Shown in pieces: positions 3,934 to 38,711 of a DNA stretch of 38,711 bases. Origin of the DNA: Acidimicrobiaceae bacterium (lineage in GTDB: Bacteria; Actinomycetota; Acidimicrobiia; Acidimicrobiales; Ilumatobacteraceae); the NCBI GenBank assembly GCA_024641005.1, contig JAHEDX010000024.1, forward strand, positions 1 to 38,711, in the 5' to 3' direction. Position numbers and translations under genes: made by a program. The notes below the pieces were generated by a model. It did no database searches. It worked only from the letters and a program-made list of their open reading frames with translations, and was not told the DNA's origin. Position 1 is the stretch's first letter. The number at the start of each line of letters is the position of its first letter.

Positions 3934-4830
3934 TCAGCCGTCACGGCCGTCGGCGGAGGCGACCGACGGGACCGAAGGACTCGGATCCGGCCCTTCGGTG
4001 CTGGTCCGTGGTCTCGCCAGCGCAGCGTTCAGTTCGGCTCCGATCAGGCTGATCAGCGCGTGCAGGCTGAGCCAGCTCAGCAAGGCGAGGGTGGCCGCGA
4101 ACGTGCCGTAGACGTTGGCGGCGTCGTCGAGGGTGTTGGTGACGAGGCGCGTCCCTGCGAACTGCAGCACCGTGTACATCACGCCGCTGAACACCGCTCC
4201 GGGCCACAACATCGCCCAGGTCACGGATCTGGACGTGAGGTAGCGATACATGGTGCCGACCACGATCACATTGAGCACCAGCCCACCGAACGTGATCAGC
4301 ATCTGGCCGAGGCGGGGCAGCCCGGCCTCGCTGACGACCGCCGCCAGCGCAACGGCGCCGATTTGTCCGATACCGATCACGGCGATCCCGACGAGTGCCT
4401 TCGCCCGCTGGATCGCACCGTTGGCTCGATCGTCGATCGGCACGTCCCAGATGTCGTCGAGAGCGGACTGCAGCGCGACGAACGCCTTGAGCGACCCCCA
4501 CAGTGCGACGCCCAGCCCCACGAACAGTGCCCACCAGCTCCCGCTGATCGTCGAACCCGGCTCGAGATCGGCGCCGACGACCGGGATCCGGCTGAGCGCG
4601 GAGTCGACGATACGGGCTTGCAGGTCGGGGTTTCCTTCGAGGACGAACCCGAGGATCGTGGTCGCTGCCATCAACAGTGGGAACAGGGTGAGGAATCCGT
4701 AGTAGGCCAGCACGGCGGCGTTGCGCCCCGTGAGGTGACGCCGAAAGCCGTCGAGCAACTCGACGACGACATCGAAGACGACGCTGCGTCGACGCACTCG
4801 CATCACCTTCGGATGGGTGGTCCAGGCCAT
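3934..4830 (-). CDS. YihY/virulence factor BrkB family membrane protein
   Basis: Inner-membrane protein of the YihY/BrkB (UPF0761) family, whose molecular function is not settled. The 298 residues contain the family pattern: an N-terminal amphipathic stretch, AVLAYYGFLTLFPLLMAATTILG as the first helix region, a loop region with the ALDDIWDVP motif around residue 135, and four further hydrophobic helices ending in LISLIGAELNAAL, followed by a hydrophilic Ser/Pro-rich tail. It starts 6 bases after the stop of the uracil-DNA glycosylase gene on the same strand, so the two are probably co-transcribed; the pairing gives no obvious functional clue. The start ATG at 4830 has only a weak GGAG at a long spacing, and a second in-frame ATG lies 9 codons further on. 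Confidence 0.9.
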   Translation of the reverse strand: MAWTTHPKVMRVRRRSVVFDVVVELLDGFRRHLTGRNAAVLAYYGFLTLFPLLMAATTILGFVLEGNPDLQARIVDSALSRIPVVGADLEPGSTISGSWWALFVGLGVALWGSLKAFVALQSALDDIWDVPIDDRANGAIQRAKALVGIAVIGIGQIGAVALAAVVSEAGLPRLGQMLITFGGLVLNVIVVGTMYRYLTSRSVTWAMLWPGAVFSGVMYTVLQFAGTRLVTNTLDDAANVYGTFAATLALLSWLSLHALISLIGAELNAALARPRTSTEGPDPSPSVPSVASADGRDG

Positions 4831-11395: not shown

Positions 11396-11887
11396 ATGAT
11401 CGAGTTGTTCCGGTTCCCTGATCCCGTCAACGAGACGTCTGCCCGGCTGGTCGCCGCCGGCGTCGTGCTGCAGGCGGCCGCGTTCCTCGTCCTCAGGGAG
11501 GGCTGGGTCCTGCTGCCATTGGTCTACGGGTTCCTGGCGAGAGCGCTGACGGGGCCGACACTCAGCCCGCTCGCCCAGTTCGTCACCCGCGTCGTGACGC
11601 CACGGCTGCGCGTCGAGCACCGTCTGGTGCCGGGGCGCCCCAAGCGGTTCGCGCAAGGGATCGGGCTGGCGTTCAGCGGGCTCGGCGCGCTCGCCTGGGC
11701 CTCCGGCGTGCATACCGCGACCATCGTGTTGATCGGACTGCTCGCCGCCGCTGCGGCGCTCGAGTCGCTGTTCGCCGTGTGCCTTGGCTGTATCGCCTAC
11801 CGGTTCTTCTGGGAGTGCGACGACTGCAACGACATCAGCGAACGTCTGCGGACGTCGCTGGCCTCGAGCGTCCCGGCCAGGAGCTGA
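11396..11887 (+). CDS. DUF4395 family membrane protein
   Basis: Small integral membrane protein of 163 residues matching the DUF4395 pattern: the opening FPDPVNETSARLVAAGV, two paired hydrophobic segments, the central basic loop RLRVEHRLVPGRPKRFAQGIG, and a C-terminal cysteine group in AVCLGCIAYRFFWECDDC. Family members are often found beside thioredoxin or rhodanese-type proteins, so a role in thiol or sulfur chemistry at the membrane is possible; no such neighbour is present here. The two CxxC pairs could form disulfides or bind a metal. The last 53 bases overlap the 3' end of mftF on the opposite strand. The start is supported by a leaderless TATAGT promoter. Confidence 0.85.
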   Translation: MIELFRFPDPVNETSARLVAAGVVLQAAAFLVLREGWVLLPLVYGFLARALTGPTLSPLAQFVTRVVTPRLRVEHRLVPGRPKRFAQGIGLAFSGLGALAWASGVHTATIVLIGLLAAAAALESLFAVCLGCIAYRFFWECDDCNDISERLRTSLASSVPARS

Positions 11888-13127
11888 TCTGCGGGATCAG
11901 GGGATCGGGCGTGCGCTCCTTCAACATGCCCTTCCAGACGCCTATCGAGTAGGCGAGGTCGTCCGCGAGCACGAACGGGTGCCGGGCGGCGAGCGCTGCT
12001 GCGAACAGCACGCGGCGTGGTGGCTTCCAGCGCCAGGCCAGCAGCAGCAGTAGCGGCCACCAGACGCGTCGGATTGCACCGGCGATCTGCCCGCCGGCGT
12101 GCAGATTGCCCGATCCGGCGAGTCGCAGCGCGGCGGCGGGCGGGATGTCGGGCAGCTTCTTCACGAGGGCGGCCGCAGATCCCGCGCCCAGCGCCGCGCC
12201 GAGCACCGGTCGACCGATAGCTCCGAGTGTCCAGGCGCCGATACTCCAGCCGCTCATCCGAAGTGGTGCCAGTGCTCGCGGGTGCCGCTTCGCCAATGGG
12301 GCGGCCGACGAGCCGTAATCGATCCGCTGACGAACCCACGACCTGGTGTCTGGGCGGACGGCGTGGTTCACCTCGGTCGTCGGCTCATAGCGGCACACCC
12401 AGCCGGCGCGATCGAGCCTCCAGACGAGATCGACGTCCTCGCCGAAGCGCAGCGACGCGTCGAACCCGTCGATCGAGCGGATCGCCTCGGCGCGGCACAC
12501 GATCGCTGCCGCTGGGACATAACTGACCCGGGAGCCGGCTCGGACGCGGGCCGGCTCGGACCCGAGATCGAGGGGGCCGTGGTCGTGTTCGTAGCGCCCC
12601 AGCAATGAGGTGGAGGGGCCCGAGCGGACACGAGGCGCGACGAGCGCGACGCGATCGTCGACGAAGTGGGGCAGGAGCGTGTCGAGCCAGCCGTGGGGCA
12701 GCTCGACGTCGGCGTCGACGAATGCGACGAGCGGGGTCGTGACCTGGGCGAGCCCGGCGTTGCGGGCCGCACCTGGGCCTTGATTGGACGACAGTCGTAC
12801 TGCGGCTCCCGGAACGGGCGGATCGGATCCGTCGTCGATCACGATCGCGCCATCGGGTACGTGGGCAGGCATGCCGAGGGTCGGCACGACGATCGTGACG
12901 TCGGCGACGGTGTGTCGCTGGTGATCGGGCACGGGGTGGATGGCGCCCGCTTCCGACAATGCGGTCACGAGGGTCGAAGCGGCGACCGGTTCACCTTCGG
13001 CGATGCGTTCGACCACGCTCGAACCCGCAGCGGTCAGACGGAACAACTTCAGTGGGGAACCGCCCACGAGGACATTGCCGTGTCGTTCGACCGTGCTGTC
13101 GAGTTGGTAGCGGCGGTGCACGGTCAT
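11835..13127 (-). CDS. mftF: Mycofactocin biosynthesis glycosyltransferase MftF
   Basis: Glycosyltransferase family 2 enzyme that glycosylates the redox cofactor (pre)mycofactocin with glucose units in mycobacteria. The N-terminal 70 residues (RYQLDSTVERHGNVLVGGSPLKLFRLT) resemble the PqqD-like domain of MftF. The GT2 domain follows, with VIDDGSD, AFVDADVELP as the DxD-type metal site and FGEDVDLVWRLDRAGW with the catalytic acidic pair. A C-terminal region with hydrophobic segments (about residues 290-390) suggests membrane association. The ATG at 13127 overlaps the mftE stop by one base (TGATG), so the genes are translationally coupled; an ATG-like start 4 codons earlier would overlap more. 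The tail overlaps the DUF4395 gene by 53 bases. Confidence 0.9.
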   Translation of the reverse strand: MTVHRRYQLDSTVERHGNVLVGGSPLKLFRLTAAGSSVVERIAEGEPVAASTLVTALSEAGAIHPVPDHQRHTVADVTIVVPTLGMPAHVPDGAIVIDDGSDPPVPGAAVRLSSNQGPGAARNAGLAQVTTPLVAFVDADVELPHGWLDTLLPHFVDDRVALVAPRVRSGPSTSLLGRYEHDHGPLDLGSEPARVRAGSRVSYVPAAAIVCRAEAIRSIDGFDASLRFGEDVDLVWRLDRAGWVCRYEPTTEVNHAVRPDTRSWVRQRIDYGSSAAPLAKRHPRALAPLRMSGWSIGAWTLGAIGRPVLGAALGAGSAAALVKKLPDIPPAAALRLAGSGNLHAGGQIAGAIRRVWWPLLLLLAWRWKPPRRVLFAAALAARHPFVLADDLAYSIGVWKGMLKERTPDPLIPQISSWPGRSRPATSADVR

Positions 13128-13777
13128 CAGCCGACCCACTCGGCGACCGCGGTCGCGAGTTGGTCGGCGAGGCGACCGAAGATCTGCGCGCCGTCAGCGG
13201 CACGTGCCTGTGTCGGGTCGCCGAGCACCCCCGACTCGCTGAGAGGTCGAACGCCCCTGCTCGTCAGTTCGAACAGCGTCGGGACCGGACCAGGGATCGC
13301 AGCGTCGATTCGCACCTGGTCAGGCGCCAGCGCAAGCATCAACGAGGTCTCGGTGTGGCCGGCATGCGGGTCGCCATCGGGCACCTTCGGCCACCAGATC
13401 AGTGCGGCGCGTGCCTCGTCAAGAAACACGGCTGCCGCTCGCTGCATGGCAGCGGTGTTGCCACCATGGCCGTTGACGAACACGATCCCCGATGCCCAAT
13501 CGGCCGACCGGGCGACTTCGACGACGACGTCGGCCATCACGTCGGTGCCGATCGACAAGGTGCCGGGAAACCCCTGATGCTCGCCGCTGGCCGTGATCGT
13601 AATCGCCGGCGCCAACACGCAGTCGTCTCGTCGCGCGACGAGATCGCGCGACAGTTCGGTGGCGATCAGCGTGTCGGTGTGCAGCGGCAGGTGGGGGCCA
13701 TGCTGTTCGCAGCTGCCGACGGGCACGACGACGATCGGGTTCGTGAGATCGGTCCAGGTCATGCTGCCGAGTTCCAT
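13127..13777 (-). CDS. mftE: Mycofactocin peptidase MftE (creatininase family)
   Basis: Creatininase-like metal-dependent hydrolase that, in the mycofactocin pathway, cleaves the modified MftA precursor to release the C-terminal Val-Tyr-derived dipeptide. The metal-binding pattern is intact: GSCEQHGPHLPLHTD supplies Glu, His and Asp, VFVNGHGGNTAAM supplies His, and HAGHTETSLMLAL supplies the last Glu. The length of 216 residues is near the family norm. It is the first gene of a two-gene unit with mftF. The precursor gene mftA, the radical SAM enzyme mftC, mftB and mftD are not in this window; the 134-base upstream gap contains no small frame ending in the Val-Tyr of MftA. Assignment to MftE rather than another creatininase relies on mftF beside it. 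Confidence 0.88.
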   Translation of the reverse strand: MELGSMTWTDLTNPIVVVPVGSCEQHGPHLPLHTDTLIATELSRDLVARRDDCVLAPAITITASGEHQGFPGTLSIGTDVMADVVVEVARSADWASGIVFVNGHGGNTAAMQRAAAVFLDEARAALIWWPKVPDGDPHAGHTETSLMLALAPDQVRIDAAIPGPVPTLFELTSRGVRPLSESGVLGDPTQARAADGAQIFGRLADQLATAVAEWVG

Positions 13778-27339: not shown

Positions 27340-28014
27340 GTGGGTGCGATGGAGAACGCTCCGCAGGAGATGGCGGCCGGGTGGCGGGCTGTCGTGTGTA
27401 GCGCCGGCTACGCGGGCGCAGACGCGCTCATCGAGGCACTCACTGTCGCCGGCTACACCACCGCGAAGATGTCGACTTCCTCCGAAGCGGCCGCGCACCT
27501 CGCCCCGCACGAGGACGCGGTCGTGGTGCTCCACGGGCAACACGACGATTGGCTGCGACCGGTTGCCGATCTCAGCGTGTCGCATCCCCTGGCGCGTCCC
27601 GTCCTGCTGGCCGACGTCGAGGGCCCTGAGGAGTTGCTCGCAACGGTGGTGGCCGGTGTGTCGGGCATCTGTCGACCTGATGCTGAGATCGAGGCCATCG
27701 TCCGGACGGTCGACGCTGTGCGCGTCTCGGGCGCAGCCATCCCGCGTGGGTTCGTCGCTCCGCTCGTCGAAGCCGTACGTCACGGTCGGGGTCACCGAAT
27801 CAATGCCGACTGCGGCGCGATCGACCTCACCGATCGAGAGTGGGAGATCCTGCTCCTGCTCATGCAACGCCGCTCGACACGTGAGATGGCCGACACCCTG
27901 TTCGTGTCGCCGGGCACCATCCGTGGCCACGTGTCGACGGTGCTCAAGAAACTCGGCGCGGTCGACCGTGAGGATGCGGTCGCGATGATCGAGCACGAAG
28001 AACGGTTGTGTTGA
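27340..28014 (+). CDS. LuxR-type transcriptional regulator with degenerate receiver domain
   Basis: Regulator of 224 residues. The C-terminus (about 160-218) is a LuxR/FixJ helix-turn-helix: LTDREWEILLLLMQRRSTREMADTLFVSPGTIRGHVSTVLKKLGAVDRED, with the usual Glu, Leu, Gly and Val anchors. The N-terminal 120 residues have the alternating strand/helix layout of a receiver (RAVVCSAGYAGADALIEALTVAGY, then DAVVVLHG), but the acidic pair and the phospho-accepting Asp are absent; VVVLHG stands where VVLLD is expected. It is therefore likely to respond to something other than phosphorylation, and no histidine kinase is nearby. It lies 162 bases upstream of the glycan operon on the same strand and is the obvious candidate for controlling it (inference). 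Confidence 0.85.
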   Translation: MGAMENAPQEMAAGWRAVVCSAGYAGADALIEALTVAGYTTAKMSTSSEAAAHLAPHEDAVVVLHGQHDDWLRPVADLSVSHPLARPVLLADVEGPEELLATVVAGVSGICRPDAEIEAIVRTVDAVRVSGAAIPRGFVAPLVEAVRHGRGHRINADCGAIDLTDREWEILLLLMQRRSTREMADTLFVSPGTIRGHVSTVLKKLGAVDREDAVAMIEHEERLC

Positions 28015-28176
28015 CGTAATCCCGCGCTGAACATCTGGATCGGGGAGCGTTGATAAATTCCAACGGCCTCGGCCCTATGCGCGGACGGCACCGAGCCCTA
28101 CCGTCGAAAGAAACGCCCGCGGTGGACCGGCGAGCAATGTGGTCGTTCGGGCGGGCTTGATCAGAGGAGAGCAGTC

Positions 28177-30060
28177 ATGAATCCTCCACGTCTCCGCGCG
28201 GACCGCTTCGCTCCAGCCGGATCGACACGCTCGGACCTGAGACAGATCTCGGTCATCGTCCCGACCAAGAACGAGTCCAGAAACGTCGAACCCTTGGTCG
28301 CAGCCCTGTATGAGGCGCTCGCGACGTTCGATGCCGAGGTCATCTTCGTCGACGACAGCGACGATGACACGGCTGATGCTGTGCGCGGCGTGATCGATCG
28401 GACAGACAGTGACCGATTCGACGTGAGGTTGATCCATCGTTCGCCGAACGCTCGCACGGGTGGCCTGTCCGGCGCGGTTCTCGAAGGGCTCCAATCCGCC
28501 CGCATGCGGTGGGCGTGTGTGATGGACGGTGACCTCCAGCATCCTCCCTCGACGATCCCGCGGATGTTGGAGAAGGCAGAGTCTTCGGGGGCGTCGCTGG
28601 TGTTGGCCTCGCGCTACGTCCAGGCCGGCTCGCCCGAAGGGCTGGCCAACCGCGGGAGGCGCGCTGTGTCGATCTTGAGCGGATCGGTCGCGAAACTGGC
28701 TTTCGGCCCTCGGCTCTCCGGGGTGAGTGATCCGATGACCGGCTTCTTCGTCGTCGACACCGCTCAGTTGGATCTTTCCCGAGTTCATCCGATGGGCTTC
28801 AAGATCTTGCTGGAGGTGTTGATCAGCCATCCGGACCTGCATGTAGCGGAAGTCGGATTCGATTTCGGTCCTCGCGAGAATGGTGAGAGCAAGGCCTCGC
28901 TGGGACAGGGCATCCAGTTCGCTCGCCAGCTGATCGAGCTCAGAAGAGGCGGCTCCACCCGCCTCAACTGGCGCTACGACATCGACGGAATCATCGCCGT
29001 CGAGAGCGAGCAGCGTCTCCCCGAGCTCGACAAGTTCGTCTGTCGTCGGCCGACAGCGGCGAACACCATCACCGTTCGGGTCACCGATCTCGGCCACCTG
29101 CCGATCGGCGAGAGCATCGACACGACGGAGTTCAGCCCCGTCGTGAGCTATCGCGAACGCGGTGGCTTCGCAATGTCGCTGCGCCTCGGGGTGCTCGGCA
29201 CGGAGGTGATGGTGTCCAAGTTCGTCGCCAAGTCACCGCACGTCTTGTACACGAACGTCATCGAGCCGATCCTGCGCTGGCGGTTGGTCGAGCTCGGCTA
29301 CGTCCTCGTGCATGCCGCCTGCTTCGCCGACGGCGAGGACGCCTATCTGGTCACGGCCCGGACCGACACGGGCAAGACCACGACCATGCTGAAGGTGCTC
29401 AAGCAGTCGGAGCTGTCGTTCGTCTCGGACGACCTCGTCGTGCTGTCGTCCGATGGCACGGTGCGCACGTTCCCGAAGCCGCTCACCATCAGCGCCCACA
29501 CGGTGCACGCGCTGCACAACACCGACCTGAACCGGTTCGAGCGGATCGCCCTGTTCCCGCAGAGTCGGATCCACAGCCGCCAGGGCCGTCTCATCGCCTT
29601 CTTGCTCACGCGGTTCCGACTGCCGGTTGCCAGCATCAACGCGATCGTCCAACGCGTCGTGCCTCCTCCGAAGTATCACGTCGAACGGTTGGTGAGGGGT
29701 GTCAACTCGCAGTCGAGGTCGACCGCCCGCGGCATGTTCATCATCGAGCGTGGCGGGTCGGGAGACATGGCGATCTCGTCGGAGCGGGCGTTGCAGATCC
29801 TGCAGGCGAACTGTGACGATGCGTTTGGCTTCCCTCCCTACAGCTCGCTCGAGCGGCTGCTGCTCGCGTCCTCGGAGCACGACCTCAAGGCGAAGGAGAG
29901 GGCAATCATCGAGACAGCGATCTCGTCGCTGCCGGTGATCGTCATGAGGAGCGAGACGATGGATTGGGCCGAACGCATCCCTGCGTCGGTGTTGGCGTGG
30001 CGAACCATCGACCAGGTCCCTGAGGAGCCGTACGCCCTGGCGACGCTGCGGTCGGCATGA
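28177..30060 (+). CDS. Fusion of DPM1-type glycosyltransferase (GT2) with HPr-kinase/PEPCK-like P-loop domain
   Basis: Protein of 627 residues in two parts. Residues about 22-265 form a polyprenol-phosphate hexosyltransferase-type GT2 domain: ISVIVPTKNES, VIFVDDSDDDTAD, the metal-binding DGDLQHPP, and GVSDPMTGFF. It has no long C-terminal membrane helices. Residues about 300-600 form an ATP-binding domain with P-loop TARTDTGKTTT (Gly399-Lys400) and FVSDDLVVL (Asp418, Asp419), spaced and worded as in HPr kinase and PEP carboxykinase-like proteins. A preceding VLVHAACF and following PKPLTISAHT are conserved-looking. The GT half should load a sugar from a nucleotide donor onto a lipid phosphate; the other half may phosphorylate a sugar or protein. 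The start has a strong GAGGAGAG ribosome site. It is the first gene of the operon, and the 162-base leader shows no clear promoter. Confidence 0.85.
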   Translation: MNPPRLRADRFAPAGSTRSDLRQISVIVPTKNESRNVEPLVAALYEALATFDAEVIFVDDSDDDTADAVRGVIDRTDSDRFDVRLIHRSPNARTGGLSGAVLEGLQSARMRWACVMDGDLQHPPSTIPRMLEKAESSGASLVLASRYVQAGSPEGLANRGRRAVSILSGSVAKLAFGPRLSGVSDPMTGFFVVDTAQLDLSRVHPMGFKILLEVLISHPDLHVAEVGFDFGPRENGESKASLGQGIQFARQLIELRRGGSTRLNWRYDIDGIIAVESEQRLPELDKFVCRRPTAANTITVRVTDLGHLPIGESIDTTEFSPVVSYRERGGFAMSLRLGVLGTEVMVSKFVAKSPHVLYTNVIEPILRWRLVELGYVLVHAACFADGEDAYLVTARTDTGKTTTMLKVLKQSELSFVSDDLVVLSSDGTVRTFPKPLTISAHTVHALHNTDLNRFERIALFPQSRIHSRQGRLIAFLLTRFRLPVASINAIVQRVVPPPKYHVERLVRGVNSQSRSTARGMFIIERGGSGDMAISSERALQILQANCDDAFGFPPYSSLERLLLASSEHDLKAKERAIIETAISSLPVIVMRSETMDWAERIPASVLAWRTIDQVPEEPYALATLRSA

Positions 30061-32318
30061 CCGTCGTCACCGCTCCCCAGCCCCATCGGGGAGCGGTCGT
30101 CGTGCGAGCCGGGAAGTTCGGTCTGGTCGGTTTGATCGGCCTCGGCGTCAACCTGGCCGCCCAGGCTGCACTCACCGAGTTCGCCCAGTGGAACTATCTC
30201 GTGGCTGCAGTCGCGGCGACGCAGATGTCGTCGACGTTCAACTTCGCACTCGCCGAATCATGGGTGTTCGAAGCCGTCGGCGACTCCGCCGCCCGCGCCC
30301 GCCGCTACCTCTCGTTCCTGTTGATGAACAACGTCGCCCTCATCCTCCGGGCCCCGATGATGTGGGCGCTGGTCGACGGGTTCGGGGTTCACTACTCGAT
30401 CGCGAACTTCCTGTCGCTGGCGTTGCTGACGCTCGTTCGATTCGGCCTGTCGGATCACGTCATCTGGGGACATGGAGGCGATCTGCCCGCGGACCGACGG
30501 CGACGACCAGGCGCAGCGACGGTCTGGTCGTCTCCTTCGCGCTACGTCGTCGACGAAGCCATGCACCCGGTCGTGCGCTTCATCGTCAACGCGAAGACCG
30601 CACTGCGGCCGCGATCGCGCCGCTGGGCTGAATTGCAGCGCGACCAGTGGACGAACCGGTCGCCTCCGCAACCGGGCGACGCCTCCCCTGATGCCGTCGA
30701 GGACAGCGACCCTCCGCCTGGGGACGGGGCGAACCGTCCGGAACCGCCTTCGTCTGACTTGGTACCGGCCGAACCGGAACCGGACCCGGATCCGCCCGAT
30801 GAGTCAGAGTTCTCCTCTCGCGCTCAGGCGTTCGCTCTCACGCTGGTCCTGCTCGTCGGCGCCGGTCTTCGCTTGTGGAAGCTGATGGCGGTCGGATTCA
30901 ACAGTGATGAGGCCGTGTACTCCTCACAGGCGGCGGCGATCGCCGGTGACAGATCGATCGCCGAATTCTTTCCCGTCTTTCGCGCCCATCCGTTTCTGTT
31001 CCAAGCCGTGTTGTCGGTTCCGTATCAGCTCGGAACCAGCGACGTGGTCGGCCGCCTCTTGTCGGTCGCGTTCGGTCTTGCCACGGTGGTGGTCGTCTTC
31101 GCGACTGCGCGGAGCATCTATGGAGCGCGGGTCGGTCTGGTGGCCGCGGGTCTCGTCTCGCTCATGCCCTATCACGTCGTCGTCACCCGTCAGGTGTTGC
31201 TCGACGGCCCGATGACCTTCTTCGCGACCCTCAGTCTCTACTTCGTCGCCAAGTTCGTGCTTCGACGCCAGTTGGTCTGGCTGTTGGCTGCTTCGTGCAC
31301 GCTTGCCATGACGGTGCTGGCCAAGGAGACCTACATCATCCTGGTCGGCTCGGTGTTCATGTTCTTCGCGCTGAGTCCGGAGATCCGGCTGCGGCTGCGC
31401 GAGATGATGCTGGCCGGGCTGGTGTTCGTGGCGGTCCTGTTGCCGTTCCCTGTGACGATCCTGCTTGCCGGCAAGAGTGAGACGGGCAAGAACTATCTGT
31501 CGTGGCAGCTCTTCAGGCGGCCGAACCACGGTCTCGGCTTCTACGCGACGGTGCTGCCGCAGTATGTGGGTTATGCGGTGCTGGCCGGTGCCGTCGTCGC
31601 CTTCGCGCTCACCTGGGGACGACGTCGAACCTGGCGCGAGCGCTTGCTGATCTCGTGGGTCGTCGTCCCGGTCGCGTTTCTGGAGATCTGGCCCGTCAAG
31701 GGGTACCACTATCTGCTCGCAGCGTCGATACCGATCGCGATCCTGGCCGCTCAGGGGCTCTGTCTGTCGCTCGACCGCCTGGCGAACGGCCTTCGGCGTT
31801 GGCGCACCCGCCCCGAGTTCTCCTCCGGTCGCAGCCCGGTGACGATCGTGGGCACATTGATGACCGTGGTGGTGGCGGGTTCGCTCATGATCCCCAGTTG
31901 GGCGGCCGTCCAGCCCGCGACCGATGAGGCGTTCCTGGCAGGCACCGGCGGTGTTCCAGGAGGGCGTGAGGTCGGAGAGTGGATCGGCGAGCACGTTCCG
32001 GAAGGCGCGGAGTTCCTGACCGTGGGGCCGTCGATGGCCAACCTCGTGCAGTACTACGGGCGCAGGAAGGCATATGGCCTGTCGGTCAGCTCCAATCCGC
32101 TCAATCGCAACCCCTCGTATGAACCGATCGCGAACCCGGATCTGGCGATCCGGACGAGTGATCTCCAGTACCTCATCTGGGATTCGTACTCGTCGATGCG
32201 TTCGTCGTTCTTCGGCGACAAGCTGCTCTCCTACGCGGAGCGCTATCACGGACGAGTCGTGTACTCGTATGAGCCCGAGGGCCGACCGTTGATCACGGTG
32301 TACGAGGTGCGGCCATGA
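30057..32318 (+). CDS. GtrA-like / GT39-type glycosyltransferase membrane fusion
   Basis: Membrane protein of 753 residues. Residues 15-140 form a four-helix GtrA domain (KFGLVGLIGLGVNLAAQAALTEF), a type thought to flip polyprenol-linked sugars. A hydrophilic linker (about 155-250) rich in Pro and acidic residues follows. The rest is a GT39/ArnT-type (PMT_2) transferase: the first lumenal loop carries the acidic pair Asp284-Glu285 in VGFNSDEAVY, followed by about ten helices and an exported C-terminal domain of roughly 150 residues. Such enzymes use polyprenol-phosphate sugars on the outer face of the membrane. The ATG overlaps the previous stop (ATGA), so the product of the upstream GT2 half could be flipped and used by this protein. 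The combination forms a complete synthesis-to-transfer pair. Confidence 0.87.
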   Translation: MTVVTAPQPHRGAVVVRAGKFGLVGLIGLGVNLAAQAALTEFAQWNYLVAAVAATQMSSTFNFALAESWVFEAVGDSAARARRYLSFLLMNNVALILRAPMMWALVDGFGVHYSIANFLSLALLTLVRFGLSDHVIWGHGGDLPADRRRRPGAATVWSSPSRYVVDEAMHPVVRFIVNAKTALRPRSRRWAELQRDQWTNRSPPQPGDASPDAVEDSDPPPGDGANRPEPPSSDLVPAEPEPDPDPPDESEFSSRAQAFALTLVLLVGAGLRLWKLMAVGFNSDEAVYSSQAAAIAGDRSIAEFFPVFRAHPFLFQAVLSVPYQLGTSDVVGRLLSVAFGLATVVVVFATARSIYGARVGLVAAGLVSLMPYHVVVTRQVLLDGPMTFFATLSLYFVAKFVLRRQLVWLLAASCTLAMTVLAKETYIILVGSVFMFFALSPEIRLRLREMMLAGLVFVAVLLPFPVTILLAGKSETGKNYLSWQLFRRPNHGLGFYATVLPQYVGYAVLAGAVVAFALTWGRRRTWRERLLISWVVVPVAFLEIWPVKGYHYLLAASIPIAILAAQGLCLSLDRLANGLRRWRTRPEFSSGRSPVTIVGTLMTVVVAGSLMIPSWAAVQPATDEAFLAGTGGVPGGREVGEWIGEHVPEGAEFLTVGPSMANLVQYYGRRKAYGLSVSSNPLNRNPSYEPIANPDLAIRTSDLQYLIWDSYSSMRSSFFGDKLLSYAERYHGRVVYSYEPEGRPLITVYEVRP

Positions 32319-33676
32319 GGCACTATCGGCTCGCAGCTCTGTTGCTCGTCGCAGCCGTGACCCTGAGCAATCCGGTGCGTGCCGGCGGCCAAGGCTCGGT
32401 GCCGCCGCCTCCCGAGGACGCGCTGGCGGCCACACCGATCGAGCACTTCTTGTTCCTGATGCAGGAGAACCACTCGTTCGACAACTACTTCGGTACGTAT
32501 CCCGGTGCGAACGGTCCGCCGGCGGGCACGTGCATTCCGATCGACCCCGCCGATTCGGGATCGGGATGTATCGCACCGTCTCACGTGGGCAACCGAGCGG
32601 TCACCGATCTGTCGCACAGCCGCAAGACGTTCGAGCGTCAGTTTGCCGGCGGTGCGATGGATGGATTCGTCCACGCCTTCGACGACCCGCAAGCCGGTGA
32701 GATCGCGATGGCCTACTACGACGATCGCGACCTGCCCTGGTACTGGAACATCGCCGACAACTACGTGTTGTTCGATCGGTTCTTCTCGTCGTCAGCCAGC
32801 GGCAGTGTGAGCAACCACATGTACTGGGTGTCCGGGGTGCCGGGCGCGACCTATGAGATGGACACCGTGCCGCCCGAGGGGTGGGGTGACGACATCCCGA
32901 CGATCTTCGATCGCTTGGAGGCGGCGGGGATCTCGTGGAAGTTCTACATCCAGAACTACGACCCGACCGTGAACATTCGGGCCGGGCGACTCAACGAGAG
33001 GTTCGCGCAGGTGGTGTGGGTGCCACCCCTGGCGATGGACCGGTTCATCGACGACGAACGGCTGGCGAGCCGGATCGTCGACATGTCGGAGTACTACGAG
33101 GACGTCCAGGACGACACCCTTCCGGCGGTGTCATTCCTCGTTCCTTCCGGTGCGAGTGAGCACCCGCCTGGTCGGGTCCAGGCCGGCGAGGCCTTCGTGC
33201 GCACATTGGTCGGCAGCCTCATGCGGAGCGACGCGTGGTGGTCGTCAGCCTTCATGTGGAGCTATGACGACTGGGGCGGCTTCTACGACCACGTGAGTCC
33301 ACCCAGCGTCGACGCCCACGGCTATGGATTCCGGGTACCTGCTCTGCTCGTGAGCCCGTACGCGTGGGCAGGCCGAGTCGACAGCACGACGCTCGACTTC
33401 ACATCGGGGCTGGCATTCATCGAGGAGAACTGGGGGATCGAGCCGCTGGGCGACCGCGACGCAGCGGCGAACTCGTTGATGTCGGCGTTCGACTTCGACA
33501 GCCCGCCGCGCCCGGCAGTTCTGCTACCGGCATCGCGGACCGTCACAGAACCGGACGACGTCAACACCACCCTCCTGTACGCGGCCTACGCGACCCCGGT
33601 CGCCACGCTGGGAGCATTGGTCGCCGTCGGCCATCGGCGCCGTCGCGATCCGGATGAGGTCGAGGGGCAGGTGTGA
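32315..33676 (+). CDS. Membrane-anchored phosphoesterase, phospholipase C/AcpA family
   Basis: Exported phosphoesterase of 453 residues. A signal peptide (LAALLLVAAVTLSNPVRAGG) is followed by the family motif MQENHSFDNYFGTYPG with Glu51, Asn52 and Asp56 as metal ligands. FFSSSASGSVSNHMYWVSG supplies the nucleophile region, and WSYDDWGGFYDHVSPP the second metal group (usually YDEHGGFYDHV). The family includes phospholipases C and AcpA-like acid phosphatases that cleave phosphate esters outside the cytoplasm. A C-terminal helix (TLLYAAYATPVATLGALVAVG) followed by RRRR would hold it in the membrane with the enzyme outside. Its position in the operon suggests it acts on the lipid phosphate or on the glycan. 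ATG overlaps the preceding stop by 4 bases. Confidence 0.88.
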   Translation: MRHYRLAALLLVAAVTLSNPVRAGGQGSVPPPPEDALAATPIEHFLFLMQENHSFDNYFGTYPGANGPPAGTCIPIDPADSGSGCIAPSHVGNRAVTDLSHSRKTFERQFAGGAMDGFVHAFDDPQAGEIAMAYYDDRDLPWYWNIADNYVLFDRFFSSSASGSVSNHMYWVSGVPGATYEMDTVPPEGWGDDIPTIFDRLEAAGISWKFYIQNYDPTVNIRAGRLNERFAQVVWVPPLAMDRFIDDERLASRIVDMSEYYEDVQDDTLPAVSFLVPSGASEHPPGRVQAGEAFVRTLVGSLMRSDAWWSSAFMWSYDDWGGFYDHVSPPSVDAHGYGFRVPALLVSPYAWAGRVDSTTLDFTSGLAFIEENWGIEPLGDRDAAANSLMSAFDFDSPPRPAVLLPASRTVTEPDDVNTTLLYAAYATPVATLGALVAVGHRRRRDPDEVEGQV

Positions 33677-33677
33677 C

Positions 33678-34745
33678 GTGCACGCGTGGCCGTTTCGTCG
33701 TGGCTTCGGCGTCGTGGCCCTGGTGCTCGCCGCGATGTCGACCGTCGACACGGTGTCGGCCTCGCCTACCGACGACCTCGGCCTCACCATCGTCACGGTC
33801 CCGACCTTGCCGGGCGCGATCTTCGAGTTCGACGGTCGACGCTATGTGACCGATGAGACCGGCGGTGCGTTCGTGCCCGATGCCGGCGTCCTGCAAGGGC
33901 TCGCAGGTCGGCTCAACTACCAAGGTTTCGAAGGCGATGTGACGGTCGGCGTGTTGTTCACCAATTTCGCGGGCGCCTACAACGCAAACCGCACGCGTCG
34001 CGTCGAGGCGGTCTTCGAGACCACACGCGCCGTGACGTTCTCGTTTGTCGATCTCGATGGTCGTCCCGTCGACAACGAACGGGTGACCGCGATGACGCTG
34101 AAGAACTCTCTGGGGGTCCTGTTCGAGATCGATCCGACGATGTTCGACATGGCGGTCGTCCTGCCGTCCCAGCGCGCTGTCCAAAGCTTCGACGGCTATG
34201 TCGCCAAGGACATCTACTACACCGTTCAAGACGTGGTGATCGATGGTTCGAACACCGTGAATCGGTCACAGCAGAAGTTCCTCCCCGCCGAGGTGACCGC
34301 AGTCGAGGTGGAAACCCAGTTCTACAACGTCACGATCTCGGTGACCGACGCGTTGTTCGGTTACGCGAACGGTGATGCAGCGCTCGTCAGGTGGCCGGAC
34401 GCACACGAGTCCAGGCACGAGGTGGTCGACGGGGTCACCGCTCTGTACCTGCCGCGGGGTGACTACGAGATGAGGGTCGATGGACCGGGGCTCCAGACGT
34501 GGCGGCCGGTGTCGGTCTCTCGCGATCAGGACATCGAACTCGAGTTGTTCAGCTATGTCGACATCGTCGTGCTGGTGCTGTCGACCCTGGCCGTCGCCAT
34601 CGTGCTCGTCATCATCGGTCGGCGCCGGCACCATGCGCGTCACCGGGAGACCGGGTACTTCACCGATGTGTCACCCCAGGTGCCCGCGCAAGTCCAAGGT
34701 GCCGACGCTGAGCGGTCCGAGCCATTCGAGGCGGGTCGGACATGA
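33678..34745 (+). CDS. Membrane-anchored exported protein of unknown function
   Basis: I do not recognise this 355-residue protein. An N-terminal signal (FGVVALVLAAMSTVDTVSASP) precedes a strand-rich exported region of about 265 residues with two parts: LTIVTVPTLPGAIFEFDGRRYVTDETGGAFV, which looks like an immunoglobulin- or PEGA-like carboxypeptidase-type repeat, and a second similar repeat near VTAVEVETQFYNVTISVTDALFGYANGDAALV. A single helix (VDIVVLVLSTLAVAIVLVIIG) and a basic cytoplasmic tail end it. Such proteins may bind the polysaccharide or scaffold enzymes. GTG 33678 is one base after the preceding stop and has GAGGGGCAGG upstream; an ATG at 33654 is an alternative start. The same tail architecture is shared with both neighbours. 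Confidence 0.72.
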   Translation: MHAWPFRRGFGVVALVLAAMSTVDTVSASPTDDLGLTIVTVPTLPGAIFEFDGRRYVTDETGGAFVPDAGVLQGLAGRLNYQGFEGDVTVGVLFTNFAGAYNANRTRRVEAVFETTRAVTFSFVDLDGRPVDNERVTAMTLKNSLGVLFEIDPTMFDMAVVLPSQRAVQSFDGYVAKDIYYTVQDVVIDGSNTVNRSQQKFLPAEVTAVEVETQFYNVTISVTDALFGYANGDAALVRWPDAHESRHEVVDGVTALYLPRGDYEMRVDGPGLQTWRPVSVSRDQDIELELFSYVDIVVLVLSTLAVAIVLVIIGRRRHHARHRETGYFTDVSPQVPAQVQGADAERSEPFEAGRT

Positions 34746-35914
34746 ATGCCGGTCCCTCCCTGGGGAGTGCCGCGAGGCACCGACTGGCGTCCCGCCGGGC
34801 GGGCGTCGCAGTCTGTGTGCTCGCGATCTGTGTGTCGACGGTCTGTGCAGTCGGGCGTGCGCATGCCGACGACGCCTCGTCCGCACCGACTGCGACGTCG
34901 GTGCCCGTGCTGGCGTATTACTACATCTGGTTCGATGCGACGACGTGGAATCGGGCCAAGTCGGACCTGCCTCTCACCGGTAAGTACTCGAGTGATGAGC
35001 GCTCGGTGATGCTCGAACACATCCTGACCGCGCAAGCGGCGGGTATCGACGGTTTCATCGTGAGTTGGAAACGGACCGAGAAGCTCGATCGCCGACTCGA
35101 GACGCTCATCGAGTTGTGTGCTTCGAACGACTTCAAGCTCGCGATCATCTATCAGGGCCTCGACTTCGAGCGCGAACCGCTCCCGGTGTCCCGGATCGTC
35201 TCTGACCTCGATCATTTCATCGAGACGTTCACGCCGAATCCGGTGTTCGATCTCTTCGAAAAGCCAGCGGTGATCCTGTCGGGTTCGTGGCGGTTCGGCC
35301 GCGACGAGGTCGAGGCGATCGGCCTCGGACGGCGCGACCAACTGATGCTGCTGGGCTCCGAGAAGGACGTCGAGGGAATCGAGCGCCTCGACGGACTGAT
35401 CGATGGCGATGCCTACTACTGGTCATCGGTGAATCCAGTGGAACAGGGCAAGTATCAGGAGCGGCTGGACGCGATGTCGGAGGTGGTGCATCGTGCAGGG
35501 GGGATATGGATCCCTCCGGCCGCTCCAGGTTTCGACGCCCGCTTGGTCGGCGGTACGTCGGTCGTCGAACGCAACGACGGTGAGACGCTGGCACTCGAAC
35601 TCGAGGCCGCCCTTGCCGCTTCCCCGGATGCCATCGGTTTGATCAGCTGGAACGAGTTCAGCGAGAACTCGCATGTCGAGCCGAGTCGGCGATACGGCAC
35701 CCGATATGTCGAGAAGGTGGCCGAGTTGCTGGGAGGGACCGGACCAGTCGAACCGATCCCGGCGGGTGATCCATTCGACTCGAGCGAGCCAGGTGACCGG
35801 GGGTCGGGAACTCCGCAGGTGGCCGCGTTGGGCCTCGTGGTCGTGATCATGGTCGCTGCGACGTGGGTTGCGTCGAAGCGGCGTCGTCGGCAGTTCGCGG
35901 GGGAGGGGCAATGA
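34742..35914 (+). CDS. Exported GH99-like glycoside hydrolase, membrane-anchored
   Basis: Protein of 390 residues with a signal peptide (AGVAVCVLAICVSTVCAVGRAHA), a TIM-barrel-type catalytic region of about 290 residues and a C-terminal membrane helix (VAALGLVVVIMVAATWVAS) followed by KRRRRQ. The opening VPVLAYYYIWFDATTW, the strands DGFIVSWKR, and the C-terminal GLISWNEFSENSHVEPS (Glu305) match the WNEWxExxxIEP pattern of GH99-like and related WbsX-type domains. GH99 enzymes are endo-acting on alpha-mannans. It is likely to trim or transfer the glycan made by the upstream proteins. The ATG overlaps the previous stop by 4 bases. Catalytic identity beyond Glu305 is not established by sequence reading. 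Confidence 0.8.
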   Translation: MNAGPSLGSAARHRLASRRAGVAVCVLAICVSTVCAVGRAHADDASSAPTATSVPVLAYYYIWFDATTWNRAKSDLPLTGKYSSDERSVMLEHILTAQAAGIDGFIVSWKRTEKLDRRLETLIELCASNDFKLAIIYQGLDFEREPLPVSRIVSDLDHFIETFTPNPVFDLFEKPAVILSGSWRFGRDEVEAIGLGRRDQLMLLGSEKDVEGIERLDGLIDGDAYYWSSVNPVEQGKYQERLDAMSEVVHRAGGIWIPPAAPGFDARLVGGTSVVERNDGETLALELEAALAASPDAIGLISWNEFSENSHVEPSRRYGTRYVEKVAELLGGTGPVEPIPAGDPFDSSEPGDRGSGTPQVAALGLVVVIMVAATWVASKRRRRQFAGEGQ

Positions 35915-36432
35915 CCGCCCGAAGCGCAACCTGGGTCGGTCGCGTCGCATCACTGGTCATGGTGTGCGCCGGATGCACCTTGGGCACCTCGGGAGCGGGG
36001 GCCGAACTACGACCGCCCACCCCCTCGGAACAGCTGGATCGTCCGGCGCGTTACGTCACCTGTCCGACGAGTGGCATCACTCCGCCCGGTTCCATGGTCC
36101 TGGTCGATCGATCGCTACCGAACCTCGGCGGCGGTGTGCTCGGACGGGTGGAGGTCTACGAGGCAGCGGGCGCAGAACTGCAGATCGCGGTCGGTGTCGA
36201 CGTGCTCGATCGCTATGACGACCTCGACTTCGCGACCGAAACAACCGATGTCCAGGGACGTCCGGCAACCGTGTCCACTGCAGCAGCACTAGGACGACTC
36301 GACCAGTTGGTGATCGTCACCTGGGACGAACCGGCCGAGGTCGCGGCCTGCACCTCGCGTGCGCTCGTCGGATCGAACCTGCCCGCTCGTGAGCTGCTCG
36401 CCATCGCGAACGACGAGGGGGGAACGGGATGA
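35911..36432 (+). CDS. Small exported protein of unknown function
   Basis: Protein of 173 residues, last gene of the operon. A signal-like hydrophobic N-terminus (VASLVMVCAGCTLGTSGAGA) is followed by a mature region with no similarity I recognise: ARYVTCPTSGITPPGSMVLVDRSLPNLGGGVLGRVEVYEA, then LDQLVIVTWDEPAEVAACTSRAL. The CAGC near residue 23 is not a canonical lipobox, so processing by signal peptidase I or retention as a membrane-anchored protein is equally possible. Two cysteines of the mature part could form a disulfide. ATG 35911 overlaps the GH99-like stop by 4 bases. After its stop at 36432 the frame-shifted ATGA start of another open frame is not supported (see rejected items). Confidence 0.7.
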   Translation: MTARSATWVGRVASLVMVCAGCTLGTSGAGAELRPPTPSEQLDRPARYVTCPTSGITPPGSMVLVDRSLPNLGGGVLGRVEVYEAAGAELQIAVGVDVLDRYDDLDFATETTDVQGRPATVSTAAALGRLDQLVIVTWDEPAEVAACTSRALVGSNLPARELLAIANDEGGTG

Positions 36433-36479
36433 GCGGGCAGGACATCACGGCTCGGGAGTCTCGACATGGCCCCAGGCCG

Positions 36480-36806
36480 CTACGGCTCGAGTCGGTGAAC
36501 GGGTACCAGCGAACCCTGCGACAACAATCGTGCGCTCAGGGCGCGTCGGTGCTCGCCGCTGCTGACCGGTTCGTGCTCGGGTGGCAACGTCTCGGAGCTC
36601 GTAGGCACCCCGAGTTCGACCAGCAAAGCAATCGTGATCGCAGGCAGCGGCACGTCGACGCGAACCCGACATTCGGTGCACCAGAACGATGCGCCCACGA
36701 GCGTGATATCCGTGTGGGAGACGGCCACGTTTCCGCTGGGGAGTTCGGATACATGCCCGATCGGGCAACGCAGACGTACGACCCGGGGCGGTTGCTCCTG
36801 TGCCAC
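36480..36806 (-). CDS. Small cysteine-pair (zinc-ribbon-like) protein
   Basis: Protein of 108 residues that I place on the minus strand. RVVRLRCPIGHVSELPSGNVAVS carries a CPxGH group, and GASFWCTECRVRVDVPLPA a CxxC group about 30 residues later, giving a plausible four-ligand zinc site (Cys-His, Cys-Cys). A hydrophobic helix (IALLVELGVP) and a charged tail follow. Short proteins of this pattern occur in actinobacteria and have no known role. The GTG start at 36806 is preceded by TACGCT at 6 bases, the same leaderless spacing as in other genes here, which supports this strand over the competing plus-strand frame. It sits between two convergent and divergent plus-strand genes, the only minus-strand gene in the last 11 kb. 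Confidence 0.6.
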   Translation of the reverse strand: MAQEQPPRVVRLRCPIGHVSELPSGNVAVSHTDITLVGASFWCTECRVRVDVPLPAITIALLVELGVPTSSETLPPEHEPVSSGEHRRALSARLLSQGSLVPVHRLEP

Positions 36807-36812
36807 ACCGTC

Positions 36813-36818
36813 AGCGTA
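36813..36818 (-). promoter_or_regulatory. -10 element TACGCT of the small cysteine-pair gene
   Basis: On the minus strand TACGCT is followed by 6 bases and then the GTG at 36806. Confidence 0.45.
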
Positions 36819-36942
36819 CTTGACTCGGAAAGGGCACGAACGCTCACCCTCAGCGTCGACGAGTTCCGCACTGTGCGGGCGAAATCGGCTCCCCATCGTG
36901 GCTGGATGCAGTTCGACGTGACGATCGACCGGCCGATTTCGA

Positions 36943-36970
36943 TTGACGTGTGGCGCACGATTATTAGGCT
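36943..36970 (+). promoter_or_regulatory. Promoter TTGACG-16-TAGGCT of the metallophosphoesterase gene
   Basis: TTGACG (36943-36948) and TAGGCT (36965-36970) are separated by 16 bases and lie 25 bases before the ATG at 36995. A GCGGAGG ribosome site follows, so this gene has a leader, unlike most genes in the window. Confidence 0.5.
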
Positions 36971-36994
36971 GGGAAACGAGGCGGAGGTCTCGCC

Positions 36995-38711
36995 ATGAAT
37001 CGACTCGTGAAGGTCTTGATTCCGGTTGTCGCCTTTGTGTTACCGCCGTCGTTCGCGTCGTCGGTGGCCGTTGGGGCATCAACGTGTGTGAGCGAAGGAT
37101 CGGGCCTCACGGTCTGCATCGACGCCCCTGGCGACAACTCGACCGCAGTCGGTGCCGTGCCGGTTTCGGTCAGCGTCGACATCGTCGGCCTCAGTACGTC
37201 CGTTCAACGGGTGAACACCTATCTCGACGGCGATTTCCTCCTCGAGGACGTCGCCCCGCCGTACACCTTCGTGCTGCCCACGGCGACGTTCGTCGATGGC
37301 GCCCATGTCCTTTCGGCCGAAGCGACGATGCGCAACGGGATGATCACTCCCTTGGTGAGGGTCACACTCCATTTCGCCAACGGCGTCACCGAACCGCCGG
37401 TCAATACGAACACCTTCGCCATCCGGACCGGCACGACGCCACCCGATGGCGCTCCCTTCGTGTTTGCAGCGACCGGTGACGGCGCAGGCGGCCGACCCGA
37501 GGCGGATGCGGTCGTCGCGCTCTTGGAGGGCTGGAATCCGAATCTCCTCGCATACCTGGGTGACGTCTATGCCAAGGGCACGGTCACCGAGTTCTACAAC
37601 TGGTATGGCCACGACGGCTCTCGGTGGGACGCACTGAACGGCGTCACCAACCCCGTCATCGGCAACCACGAGTACGAGAACGGTGTCGCCCCCGGCTACT
37701 TCGACTATTGGGACAACGTCCCCGACTACTACAGCTTCGACACCCATGGCTGGCACGTCGTGACCCTCAACACGACGTCGCAGTTCGACCAGACGGCACC
37801 CGGGACCCCGCAATACCAATGGCTCGTCGACGACCTGGCAGCGAATGGCACCGATTGCTCGATCGCGTATTTCCACCATCCCGTGGTCAGTGCAGGTCCG
37901 CAGGGTGACTCGCCCGAGCTCAACGAGATCTGGAAGGTGCTCGCCGACGCCGGGGTCGACATCGTGCTGACCGGCCACGACCATCAGTATCAGCGGTGGG
38001 CGCCGTTGGACCGCAACCTCCGGCCTGACCCCGATGGGGTCACCGAGTTCGTCGTCGGCACCGGGGGCCACGGCATCCAGGCATTGGTGAGGAGCGACCC
38101 TCGCCTCGTCGCGTGGTCCGACAGTCCCGTCGGATCGTTCGGTGCCCTTCGCCTCGAGCTCAACCCGGCCGGCGCGAACTATGCGTTCGTCAATACCGCC
38201 GGCACGCTGCATGACTCCGGCTCGATCGGATGTTCAGCGGCGCCCGATGGCACGCCACCCTCAGACCCCGGTCAGGTCACTGCGACCGCGCTGAGTCACT
38301 TCGAGGCGACCGTTTCCTGGTCGGCATCGAACGACGACGTCGGTGTGGCCGGATACACCGTCCGCCGCGACGGCGCGACGCTGTCGACCGTCGAGCCGGG
38401 GCTGACAGAGTTCCTCGACGCGACGGCGTTGCCTGGTGCCACGCATGTGTACGCCGTGCAGGCCTTCGATCTGGCGGGCAACACCTCAGCGGCCGTCGCC
38501 GCCCCGCCGCTGCAGATGCCCGACGTGCCGGACGTGATCACCTACGCGGCGTCGGCTGATGCCTATGTGAACGAAGTGAACCCGACGGTCAACTATGGGT
38601 CGGCGACGGTGTTGCGTGTGGATGGGTCGCCGGTGTTGCGGTCGTATGTGCGGTTTGATGTGGGTGGGTTGTCGGGTGCTCCGGTGTCGGTGGTGTTGAG
38701 GGTGTTGGTGA
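36995..38711 (+). CDS. Exported metallophosphoesterase with Ig-like, FN3 and DNRLRE/CBM96-like modules (3' end outside window)
   Basis: Open to the window edge, at least 572 residues. A signal peptide (LVKVLIPVVAFVLPPSFASS) is followed by an Ig-like module (about 35-140), then a calcineurin-type phosphoesterase: FAATGDG, LAYLGDVY, GNHEYE, FHHP and GHDHQYQRW supply the metal ligands. Next comes a fibronectin type III repeat (about 415-505) and the start of a DNRLRE/CBM96-like module (ADAYVNEVNPTVNYGSATVLRVDG). The protein should act outside the cell on phosphate esters while binding a polymer. Codon use switches sharply near 38590 from C-ending to G/T-ending codons inside the reading frame. 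It has its own promoter and a good ribosome site, so it is separate from the upstream operon. Confidence 0.9.
   Translation, partial: MNRLVKVLIPVVAFVLPPSFASSVAVGASTCVSEGSGLTVCIDAPGDNSTAVGAVPVSVSVDIVGLSTSVQRVNTYLDGDFLLEDVAPPYTFVLPTATFVDGAHVLSAEATMRNGMITPLVRVTLHFANGVTEPPVNTNTFAIRTGTTPPDGAPFVFAATGDGAGGRPEADAVVALLEGWNPNLLAYLGDVYAKGTVTEFYNWYGHDGSRWDALNGVTNPVIGNHEYENGVAPGYFDYWDNVPDYYSFDTHGWHVVTLNTTSQFDQTAPGTPQYQWLVDDLAANGTDCSIAYFHHPVVSAGPQGDSPELNEIWKVLADAGVDIVLTGHDHQYQRWAPLDRNLRPDPDGVTEFVVGTGGHGIQALVRSDPRLVAWSDSPVGSFGALRLELNPAGANYAFVNTAGTLHDSGSIGCSAAPDGTPPSDPGQVTATALSHFEATVSWSASNDDVGVAGYTVRRDGATLSTVEPGLTEFLDATALPGATHVYAVQAFDLAGNTSAAVAAPPLQMPDVPDVITYAASADAYVNEVNPTVNYGSATVLRVDGSPVLRSYVRFDVGGLSGAPVSVVLRVLV

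Follow-up and report, generated by a model that had tools for sequence, protein, structure and literature searches.

A conserved gene cassette joining a glycosyltransferase-kinase fusion to a GtrA-GT39 transferase and anchored exported proteins

Analysis of a 38,711-nucleotide stretch of an Acidimicrobiaceae genome (the window; bases 1-38711 of contig 142 in a 4.1-Mb assembly of 175 contigs with 94% completeness) revealed a plus-strand cassette whose first core gene fuses a glycosyltransferase family 2 (GT2) domain to a kinase-like domain. It is followed by genes for a GtrA-GT39 transferase, an exported phosphoesterase, an exported beta-sandwich protein (gene 5, termed G5) and a glycoside hydrolase (GH). 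The cassette is real and conserved, and it is undescribed as far as searched. It probably encodes a dedicated multi-component transmembrane glycosylation system. A sequence-only reading of the window had proposed that a LuxR-type regulator and six coupled genes make, transfer and trim a surface glycan. The features of the region are as follows (DPM, dolichol-phosphate mannose; PEPCK, phosphoenolpyruvate carboxykinase; PMT, protein mannosyltransferase; TM, transmembrane).

27340..28014, plus strand: gene 1, LuxR/GerE-type regulator (PF00196, 2.3e-12), a possible member
28177..30060, plus strand: gene 2, GT2 domain (DPM-synthase-like, residues ~23-262) and PEPCK/HprK-fold kinase domain (~265-627)
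30057..32318, plus strand: gene 3, GtrA domain (20-137; PF04138, 3.1e-20) and GT39/PMT-type GT-C transferase (PF13231, 7.1e-19; PF02366, 2.8e-11)
32315..33676, plus strand: gene 4, exported PF04185 phosphoesterase (1.3e-69) with a C-terminal TM helix
33678..34745, plus strand: gene 5 (G5), exported beta-sandwich protein with a transthyretin/CnaB-like last domain and a C-terminal TM helix
34742..35914, plus strand: gene 6, GH71/GH99-like exported glycoside hydrolase (PF03659, 1.1e-8; PF16317, 5.4e-8) with a C-terminal TM helix
35911..36432, plus strand: gene 7, small exported protein, possible lipoprotein (VCAGC), outside the conserved core
36995..38711, plus strand, running off the window: exported protein with Big_7, calcineurin-type metallophosphatase and CBM96 domains

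Organization and conservation of the cassette

The packing of the genes was as the sequence-only reading had it, with ATGA overlaps at 30057-30060, 32315-32318, 34742-34745 and 35911-35914 and a 1-base gap between the stop ending at 33676 and the GTG start of gene 5 at 33678. The packed block ends at 36432. The proposed domains were recovered by Pfam above cut-off (GerE, GT2, GtrA with PMT_2/PMT, PF04185 and GH71), and no Pfam family above cut-off was assigned to gene 5 or gene 7. A plan shared by the phosphoesterase, G5 and GH (signal peptide, exported domain, single C-terminal helix and basic tail) was also seen by eye in the translations.

GT2 matches were common among 100 relatives, and the kinase half was not reached by any GT2-kinase match among the matches listed in the nine same-genus genomes. 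Across 198 genomes of the order, a kinase-half query matched 11 (E 0.001); besides the window, only G245 and G229 gave near-full-length matches, the other eight being short. G5 was found in the same three genomes of the 198, namely that of the window, G245 and G229. Both of the latter encode GT2-kinase, GtrA-GT39 or GT39, phosphoesterase, G5 and GH in the order seen in the window, with G5 and GH forming a single 854-residue open reading frame (ORF) in G245 and GT2, GtrA and kinase a single 795-residue ORF in G229. In the window's phylum as sampled, a near-full-length kinase was present in 2/396 genomes (the window's included) and only partial matches in 28, and the system is therefore rare in this phylum.

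A wider survey with a three-row kinase alignment (A1) yielded 75 loci in genome contigs, many of them short, or 76 with the window. These include L057 (G245) and L099 (G229), which were judged to be the same contigs as L048 and L049, respectively. Comparison of the window proteins with the ORFs of the 76 loci (blastp, E 0.001) recovered the kinase in 76, GT2 in 70, GtrA in 69, GT39 in 64, the phosphoesterase in 51, G5 in 45, GH in 42, LuxR in 10 and gene 7 in only 1. Thirty-five long loci, in which the contig continues for 9 kb or more past the kinase ORF, were suited to a test of gene order; the window, with 8.7 kb, was left out. Downstream on the same strand, GT39 was found in 32 of these, the phosphoesterase in 28, G5 in 28, GH in 27 and all four in 25, and the order of the four genes was the same in 25/25 (allowing 300-600 bases of tolerance in the ORF starts). 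Carriers of kinase loci include Flexivirga endophytica, Leekyejoonella antrihumi, Thermalbibacter longus and Thermomicrobium sp. CFH 73360. In a kinase tree of 75 rows, built by a quick method, phylum labels changed 12 times, compared with 25.0 times in shuffles and a least possible number of 6. The labels are thus clustered yet mixed, a pattern in which transfer, loss and mis-binning are not separable; for single contigs of metagenome-assembled genomes, the placement of loci in Acidobacteria (L052) and Spartobacteria (L088) may reflect binning errors. Carriage of the system on a plasmid or phage was considered and rejected, since no kinase match was found in 72,556 plasmid records at E 1e-10 and none was confirmed in viral contigs.

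The domains of the cassette are regrouped from locus to locus, as counted with a reading-frame check that was also applied to the overlap and C-terminal counts. GT2, GtrA and kinase form a single ORF in 41 of the 76 loci, while 13 have GT2-kinase, five have GtrA-kinase and 17 have the kinase alone (four of these starting at a contig end). GtrA is joined to GT39 in four loci, the window included; G5 is fused to GH in L057 (the contig of L048) and the phosphoesterase to G5 in L096 and L103. Because the same domains regroup across loci, the pattern suggests one pathway. The genes are also closely coupled. For neighbouring GT39 and phosphoesterase genes, a 4-base overlap is possible in 48/50 pairs and the start lies within -20 to +25 bases in 50/50; an overlap is likewise possible in 26/35 G5-GH, 23/39 phosphoesterase-G5 and 16/50 kinase-GT39 pairs (ten further pairs of the last kind lie far apart). 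Furthermore, the distance matrices of the seven families correlate in all 21 pairs (r 0.40-0.89, each at P 0.002, the floor with 499 permutations), most strongly for GT39 and phosphoesterase (r 0.89, n = 50) and most weakly for GT2 and GH (r 0.40, n = 36).

Co-occurrence across genomes gave a consistent picture. In the class of Thermalbibacter (158 genomes), the kinase was found at E < 1e-100 in 15 genomes and partially, at 1e-10 to 1e-16, in four more. G5 was present in 12/15 genomes with a full-length kinase and 0/143 without one (Fisher 1.4e-15), the three exceptions being G626, G627 and G628; in the window's order the counts were 3/3 and 0/195 (Fisher 7.8e-7), for a G5 profile that was built from kinase-linked loci and could favour kinase-linked matches. 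These genome searches scored part of the first-look candidates. When the genomes of 27 loci were searched for G5, it was found in 10, of which L061 and L078 were already known, so that 8/25 are new. Collectively, much the same genes in the same order are found far beyond the species, although none of the matches listed in the nine same-genus genomes extends into the kinase half, and G5 tracks the full-length kinase. This is as expected of the single system that had been proposed.

Predicted proteins, proposed function and alternatives

The GT2 domain (PF00535, 3.8e-21) has as its best PDB match the DPM synthase 5mlz (1.8e-33), and its Asp117 and Asp119 are kept in 67/67 sequences. The kinase-like domain noted from the sequence is real, its AlphaFold2 model having a pLDDT of 93 and a PEPCK/HprK fold. 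Fold comparison was used because no sequence relative of this domain was found in the PDB at E 0.1; it gave a good VIA-align Z. The domain scores 15.6 bits with HprK_rel_A, against a cut-off of 200. Lys400-Thr401 and Asp418-Asp419 are kept in 75/75 sequences, and across 70 sequences drawn from several phyla 55/363 positions do not vary. If ATP is used, the kinase must face the cytoplasm. An even number of GtrA helices between GT2 and kinase would presumably hold the two on one side of the membrane.

In the GT39 transferase, the Asp284-Glu285 motif is present in 59/59 sequences. This protein is the sole PF02366 (PMT) match at E 1e-5 in the window's genome (G000, 94% complete), and no separate PMT of that family is therefore seen there. 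The phosphoesterase matches AcpA (2d1g, 1.2e-31). Given the active-site roles that we presume from AcpA, the putative site of the window protein is intact (Glu51, Asn52, Ser164, Asp318 and Asp319). G5 has no catalytic look, and the last helix of its predicted model spans 293-326. The GH protein is just above the cut-off for GH71 (PF03659, 34.8 bits against 34) and just under that for GH99 (PF16317, 32.8 against 33), and it matches 4ad1 (5.1e-5). Its Glu305 and Glu308 are kept in 41/41 sequences and align with residues 333 and 336 of 4ad1, which we take to be the catalytic pair of BxGH99. A TM-like segment follows the domain in 47/53 phosphoesterases, 37/42 G5 and 27/40 GH proteins with complete C termini in the 76 loci, as judged by a crude hydropathy test that missed the window's own G5. 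The LPXTG_anchor profile matched gene 6 only, at 12.3 bits, under its cut-off of 15.9.

From the established gene content, order, co-occurrence, predicted folds and catalytic-type residues, we infer the following enzyme roles, sugar, acceptor and kinase substrate. The GT2 domain would make a polyprenyl-phosphate hexose in the cytoplasm, and GtrA would anchor the synthase and/or help the lipid-sugar to cross the membrane. GT39, with an outward-facing active site, would then transfer the sugar to an extracellular acceptor. That the set makes and transfers a polyprenol-linked sugar, as had been proposed, is supported by the families and the catalytic residues of GT2 and GT39. The C-terminally anchored PF04185 protein, G5 and the GH99-like hydrolase would form an outer-face module of GT39, in which G5 may be a beta-sandwich scaffold or the acceptor and the hydrolase may trim the product, a role that the conserved Glu pair makes plausible. 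The likeliest sugar would be mannose, since GT2 is nearest to DPM synthase, GT39 is a member of the PMT families and endo-mannosidases are among the group of the GH. The fused HprK/PEPCK-fold domain would be a cytoplasmic ATP-using kinase, whose target is most likely a lipid or lipid-sugar intermediate because the synthase, and in many loci a GtrA domain as well, is part of the same fusion.

Several observations weigh against this interpretation. At least one of the four downstream genes is missing from 10/35 long loci (L051, L055, L078, L081, L087, L088, L098, L101, L108 and L120); L051 and L055 have GT39 and phosphoesterase without G5 or GH, and in L088, L098 and L101 all four are absent from the same strand downstream. 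The window kinase domain has no Pfam match at E 0.05, and Foldseek TM-scores are low (0.37-0.41) for the PEPCK rows with E < 0.001. GT39 has no PDB sequence match at E 0.01, and its donor and acceptor are for this reason drawn from family names. GtrA may presumably be a mere membrane part of the synthase, as in the Pyrococcus furiosus DPM synthase, and not a flippase. Finally, 26 of 51 members (window included) have an altered putative phosphoesterase site. Nineteen have the exact set, or 25 if Gln51 and Glu319 are allowed. In L050, the window's nearest neighbour in the kinase tree, Glu-Gly, His and Asp-Thr replace Glu-Asn, Ser and Asp-Asp. Mapped on the kinase tree, which lacks L089, 24 intact and 26 altered sites (n = 50) require at least 6 changes. 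The altered proteins keep the fold and their place in the cassette; catalysis is thus not general, and the PF04185 protein may be a partner of GT39 no less than an enzyme.

Two of the incomplete loci, L051 and L055, represent a subtype within the Acidimicrobiales. After the phosphoesterase, these loci encode a PhoD-like protein, whose start looks twin-arginine-like by eye, in place of G5 and GH. A different arrangement was observed in a Chloroflexi locus (L063:458-10847), where the genes upstream of GT2-GtrA-kinase encode GH, a metallophosphatase and a pair of small exported proteins that belong to no family, a CBM96-PF04185 protein lies downstream and G5 is on other contigs of the genome.

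Phosphohydrolases are frequent around the cassette, in counts that rest on a simple base-composition gene caller. Proteins similar to the window's Big_7/metallophosphatase/CBM96 protein adjoin the cassette in relatives, and metallophosphatase, PHP or PhoD domains, frequently together with FN3 or CBM96, occur in other neighbours; a signal peptide was found in many of these neighbours by a simple hydropathy test. Metallophosphatase, PHP, CBM96 or FN3 genes make up 51/186 downstream non-core genes and 10/359 upstream ones. Another phosphohydrolase (metallophosphatase/PAP, PHP or PhoD) lies within 14 genes, on either side or strand, in 34/35 long loci, the exception being L088; in the window it is the gene at 36995.

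One alternative, which we consider somewhat unlikely, is that the outer proteins do not process a glycan but are surface scavengers that degrade phosphoesters and glycans, and that the glycosyltransferases merely glycosylate them for attachment or stability. The downstream clustering of CBM96, FN3, metallophosphatase, PHP and PhoD proteins would fit such a role, as would the Thr-Pro linker in at least one of them (L087:8131-10533), but the noncatalytic look of G5 and the alteration of half of the putative phosphoesterase sites fit a structural one.

Another, rather unlikely alternative is a cycle of phosphate capping. Here the kinase would phosphorylate a sugar or sugar-lipid on the cytoplasmic face, flipping and transfer of the phosphorylated unit would follow, and the cassette phosphatases would remove or process the phosphate outside. 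Such a cycle could give direction to export, or a glycan that is switched on only at the surface. It draws on the invariant kinase motifs, the phosphohydrolase near nearly every long locus and the downstream excess of phosphatase and CBM96/FN3 domains. Against it, the phosphatases are of several kinds and may be there to scavenge phosphate, some are off the cassette strand or not downstream, and the core PF04185 site is so often altered. We also know of no lipid or sugar kinase of this fold. Put as a form of kinase-gated glycosylation, in which the fused kinase would phosphorylate the lipid-linked sugar or the lipid inside and putative extracellular phosphatases would dephosphorylate after transfer, the idea is equally doubtful; if true, a surface glycan would have a phosphorylation/dephosphorylation ratchet, and the HprK/PEPCK fold would gain a new activity.

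It is also unlikely that the kinase is an HprK-like regulator that phosphorylates a serine of GT2, GtrA or another protein and so tunes glycosylation to the energy state. Its fold and its weak profile likeness to HPr kinase/phosphatase and HprK-related kinases point in this direction, but the proportion of invariant positions is more like a fixed small-molecule site than one for a changing protein target. Chance clustering of common envelope genes, for which the only argument is how frequent GT2-type genes are in these genomes, is refuted by the co-occurrence statistics and by a gene order conserved in several phyla, and we give it almost no credence.

Regulator and flanking genes

The LuxR gene ends 162 bases upstream of the GT2-kinase gene and is not coupled to it. 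A receiver domain in its product is less certain: Pfam finds GerE only, and the NCBIfam response regulator profile MadR matches residues 45-215 at 1.9e-13, with 50.3 bits against a cut-off of 300. LuxR or histidine-kinase genes account for 16/118 genes in the two positions upstream of the cassettes and for 7/425 other non-core genes, an enrichment whose P value is too small because the set includes close relatives (L111-L113, L116 and L117). The proposal that the regulator is in control is supported in part by this enrichment, but several of the loci are near relatives and most loci have no such gene there. A sigma-70 promoter scan found 0 promoters, terminators were fewer than in shuffles and no RNA families were found in the window.

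Gene 7 was rejected as a core member, since its profile found no match outside the window among the 76 loci. A 29% alignment with a protein at the same place in L048 is only suggestive, because the profile missed L057, the same contig. The plus-strand ORF at 36429-36998 was also rejected as an eighth coupled gene despite an ATGA overlap; over its second half the base composition is that of non-coding DNA, and the minus strand there holds a gene for which a homologue exists. The minus strand at 36480-37082, between gene 7 and the metallophosphatase, encodes a small zinc-ribbon-like protein with a homologue in 1/30 relatives, and a similar-looking small protein was seen by eye near the Flexivirga cassette (L091:18844-19089). 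The metallophosphatase gene at 36995 is probably on its own transcript. Past the window (L145), this gene enters a run of N, and an ORF at 3315-4490 repeats a CBM96-like stretch, as judged by eye. Elsewhere in the window, the minus strand carries MftF (11835-13139; 325.6 bits, cut-off 280) and MftE (13127-13777; 251.2 bits, cut-off 172) genes, part of a mycofactocin biosynthesis locus.

Comparison with known systems

No description of the gene set was found in the open literature, subscription journals and preprints being largely outside the search, which agrees with the claim that no named pathway has this composition. The GH protein matches both GH99 endo-alpha-mannosidases and GH71 alpha-1,3-glucanases, with the Glu pair aligned; unlike these enzymes, it is membrane-anchored and tied to a glycosylation operon. 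The P-loop fold of the kinase is common to HPr kinase/phosphatase, PEPCK and the HprK-related kinases A and B (TIGR04352 and TIGR04355), but the window kinase scores far under the family cut-off and is fused to a glycosyltransferase. The GT2-GtrA part of the fused relatives matches what we take to be the layout of the P. furiosus DPM synthase (5mlz), which presumably has no kinase domain; in the window, by contrast, GtrA is fused to GT39. Bacterial protein O-mannosylation, for example in Mycobacterium, uses a polyprenyl-phosphate mannose synthase and a PMT. The window likewise has a DPM-type synthase and a PMT-family transferase, whereas its operon adds the kinase, the GH99-like hydrolase, the beta-sandwich protein and the phosphoesterase.

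If borne out, the proposed system would extend a well-studied type of envelope glycosylation by a kinase step and an anchored outer-face module, and a subfamily of HprK-like kinases that is uncharacterised would be assigned a role. It would also account for an operon common to Actinomycetota, Chloroflexota, Thermomicrobiota and others. The named carrier strains make the system testable.

The closest comparison is with multi-component transmembrane glycosylation systems, which, as that class is described in a review, are defined by a trio of GT2, GtrA and GT-C proteins (PMC8035078). We place the cassette core in this class because each testable feature of it was found, by homology. In the Gram-positive systems CsbB-GtcA-YfhO and GtlA-GtcA-GtlB, a GT-A polyprenyl-phosphate-sugar synthase acts with a GtrA-type protein and a GT-C transferase, the same three components as in the window (PMC8035078). 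Extra acceptor-binding proteins have been speculated for such systems in the review (PMC8035078). The words "kinase" and "phosphoesterase" do not occur in its main text, whereas the window has a fused HprK/PEPCK-fold kinase and three anchored exported proteins (PMC8035078). Relative to the known systems as that source describes them, the kinase, G5, GH and phosphatases are additions (PMC8035078).

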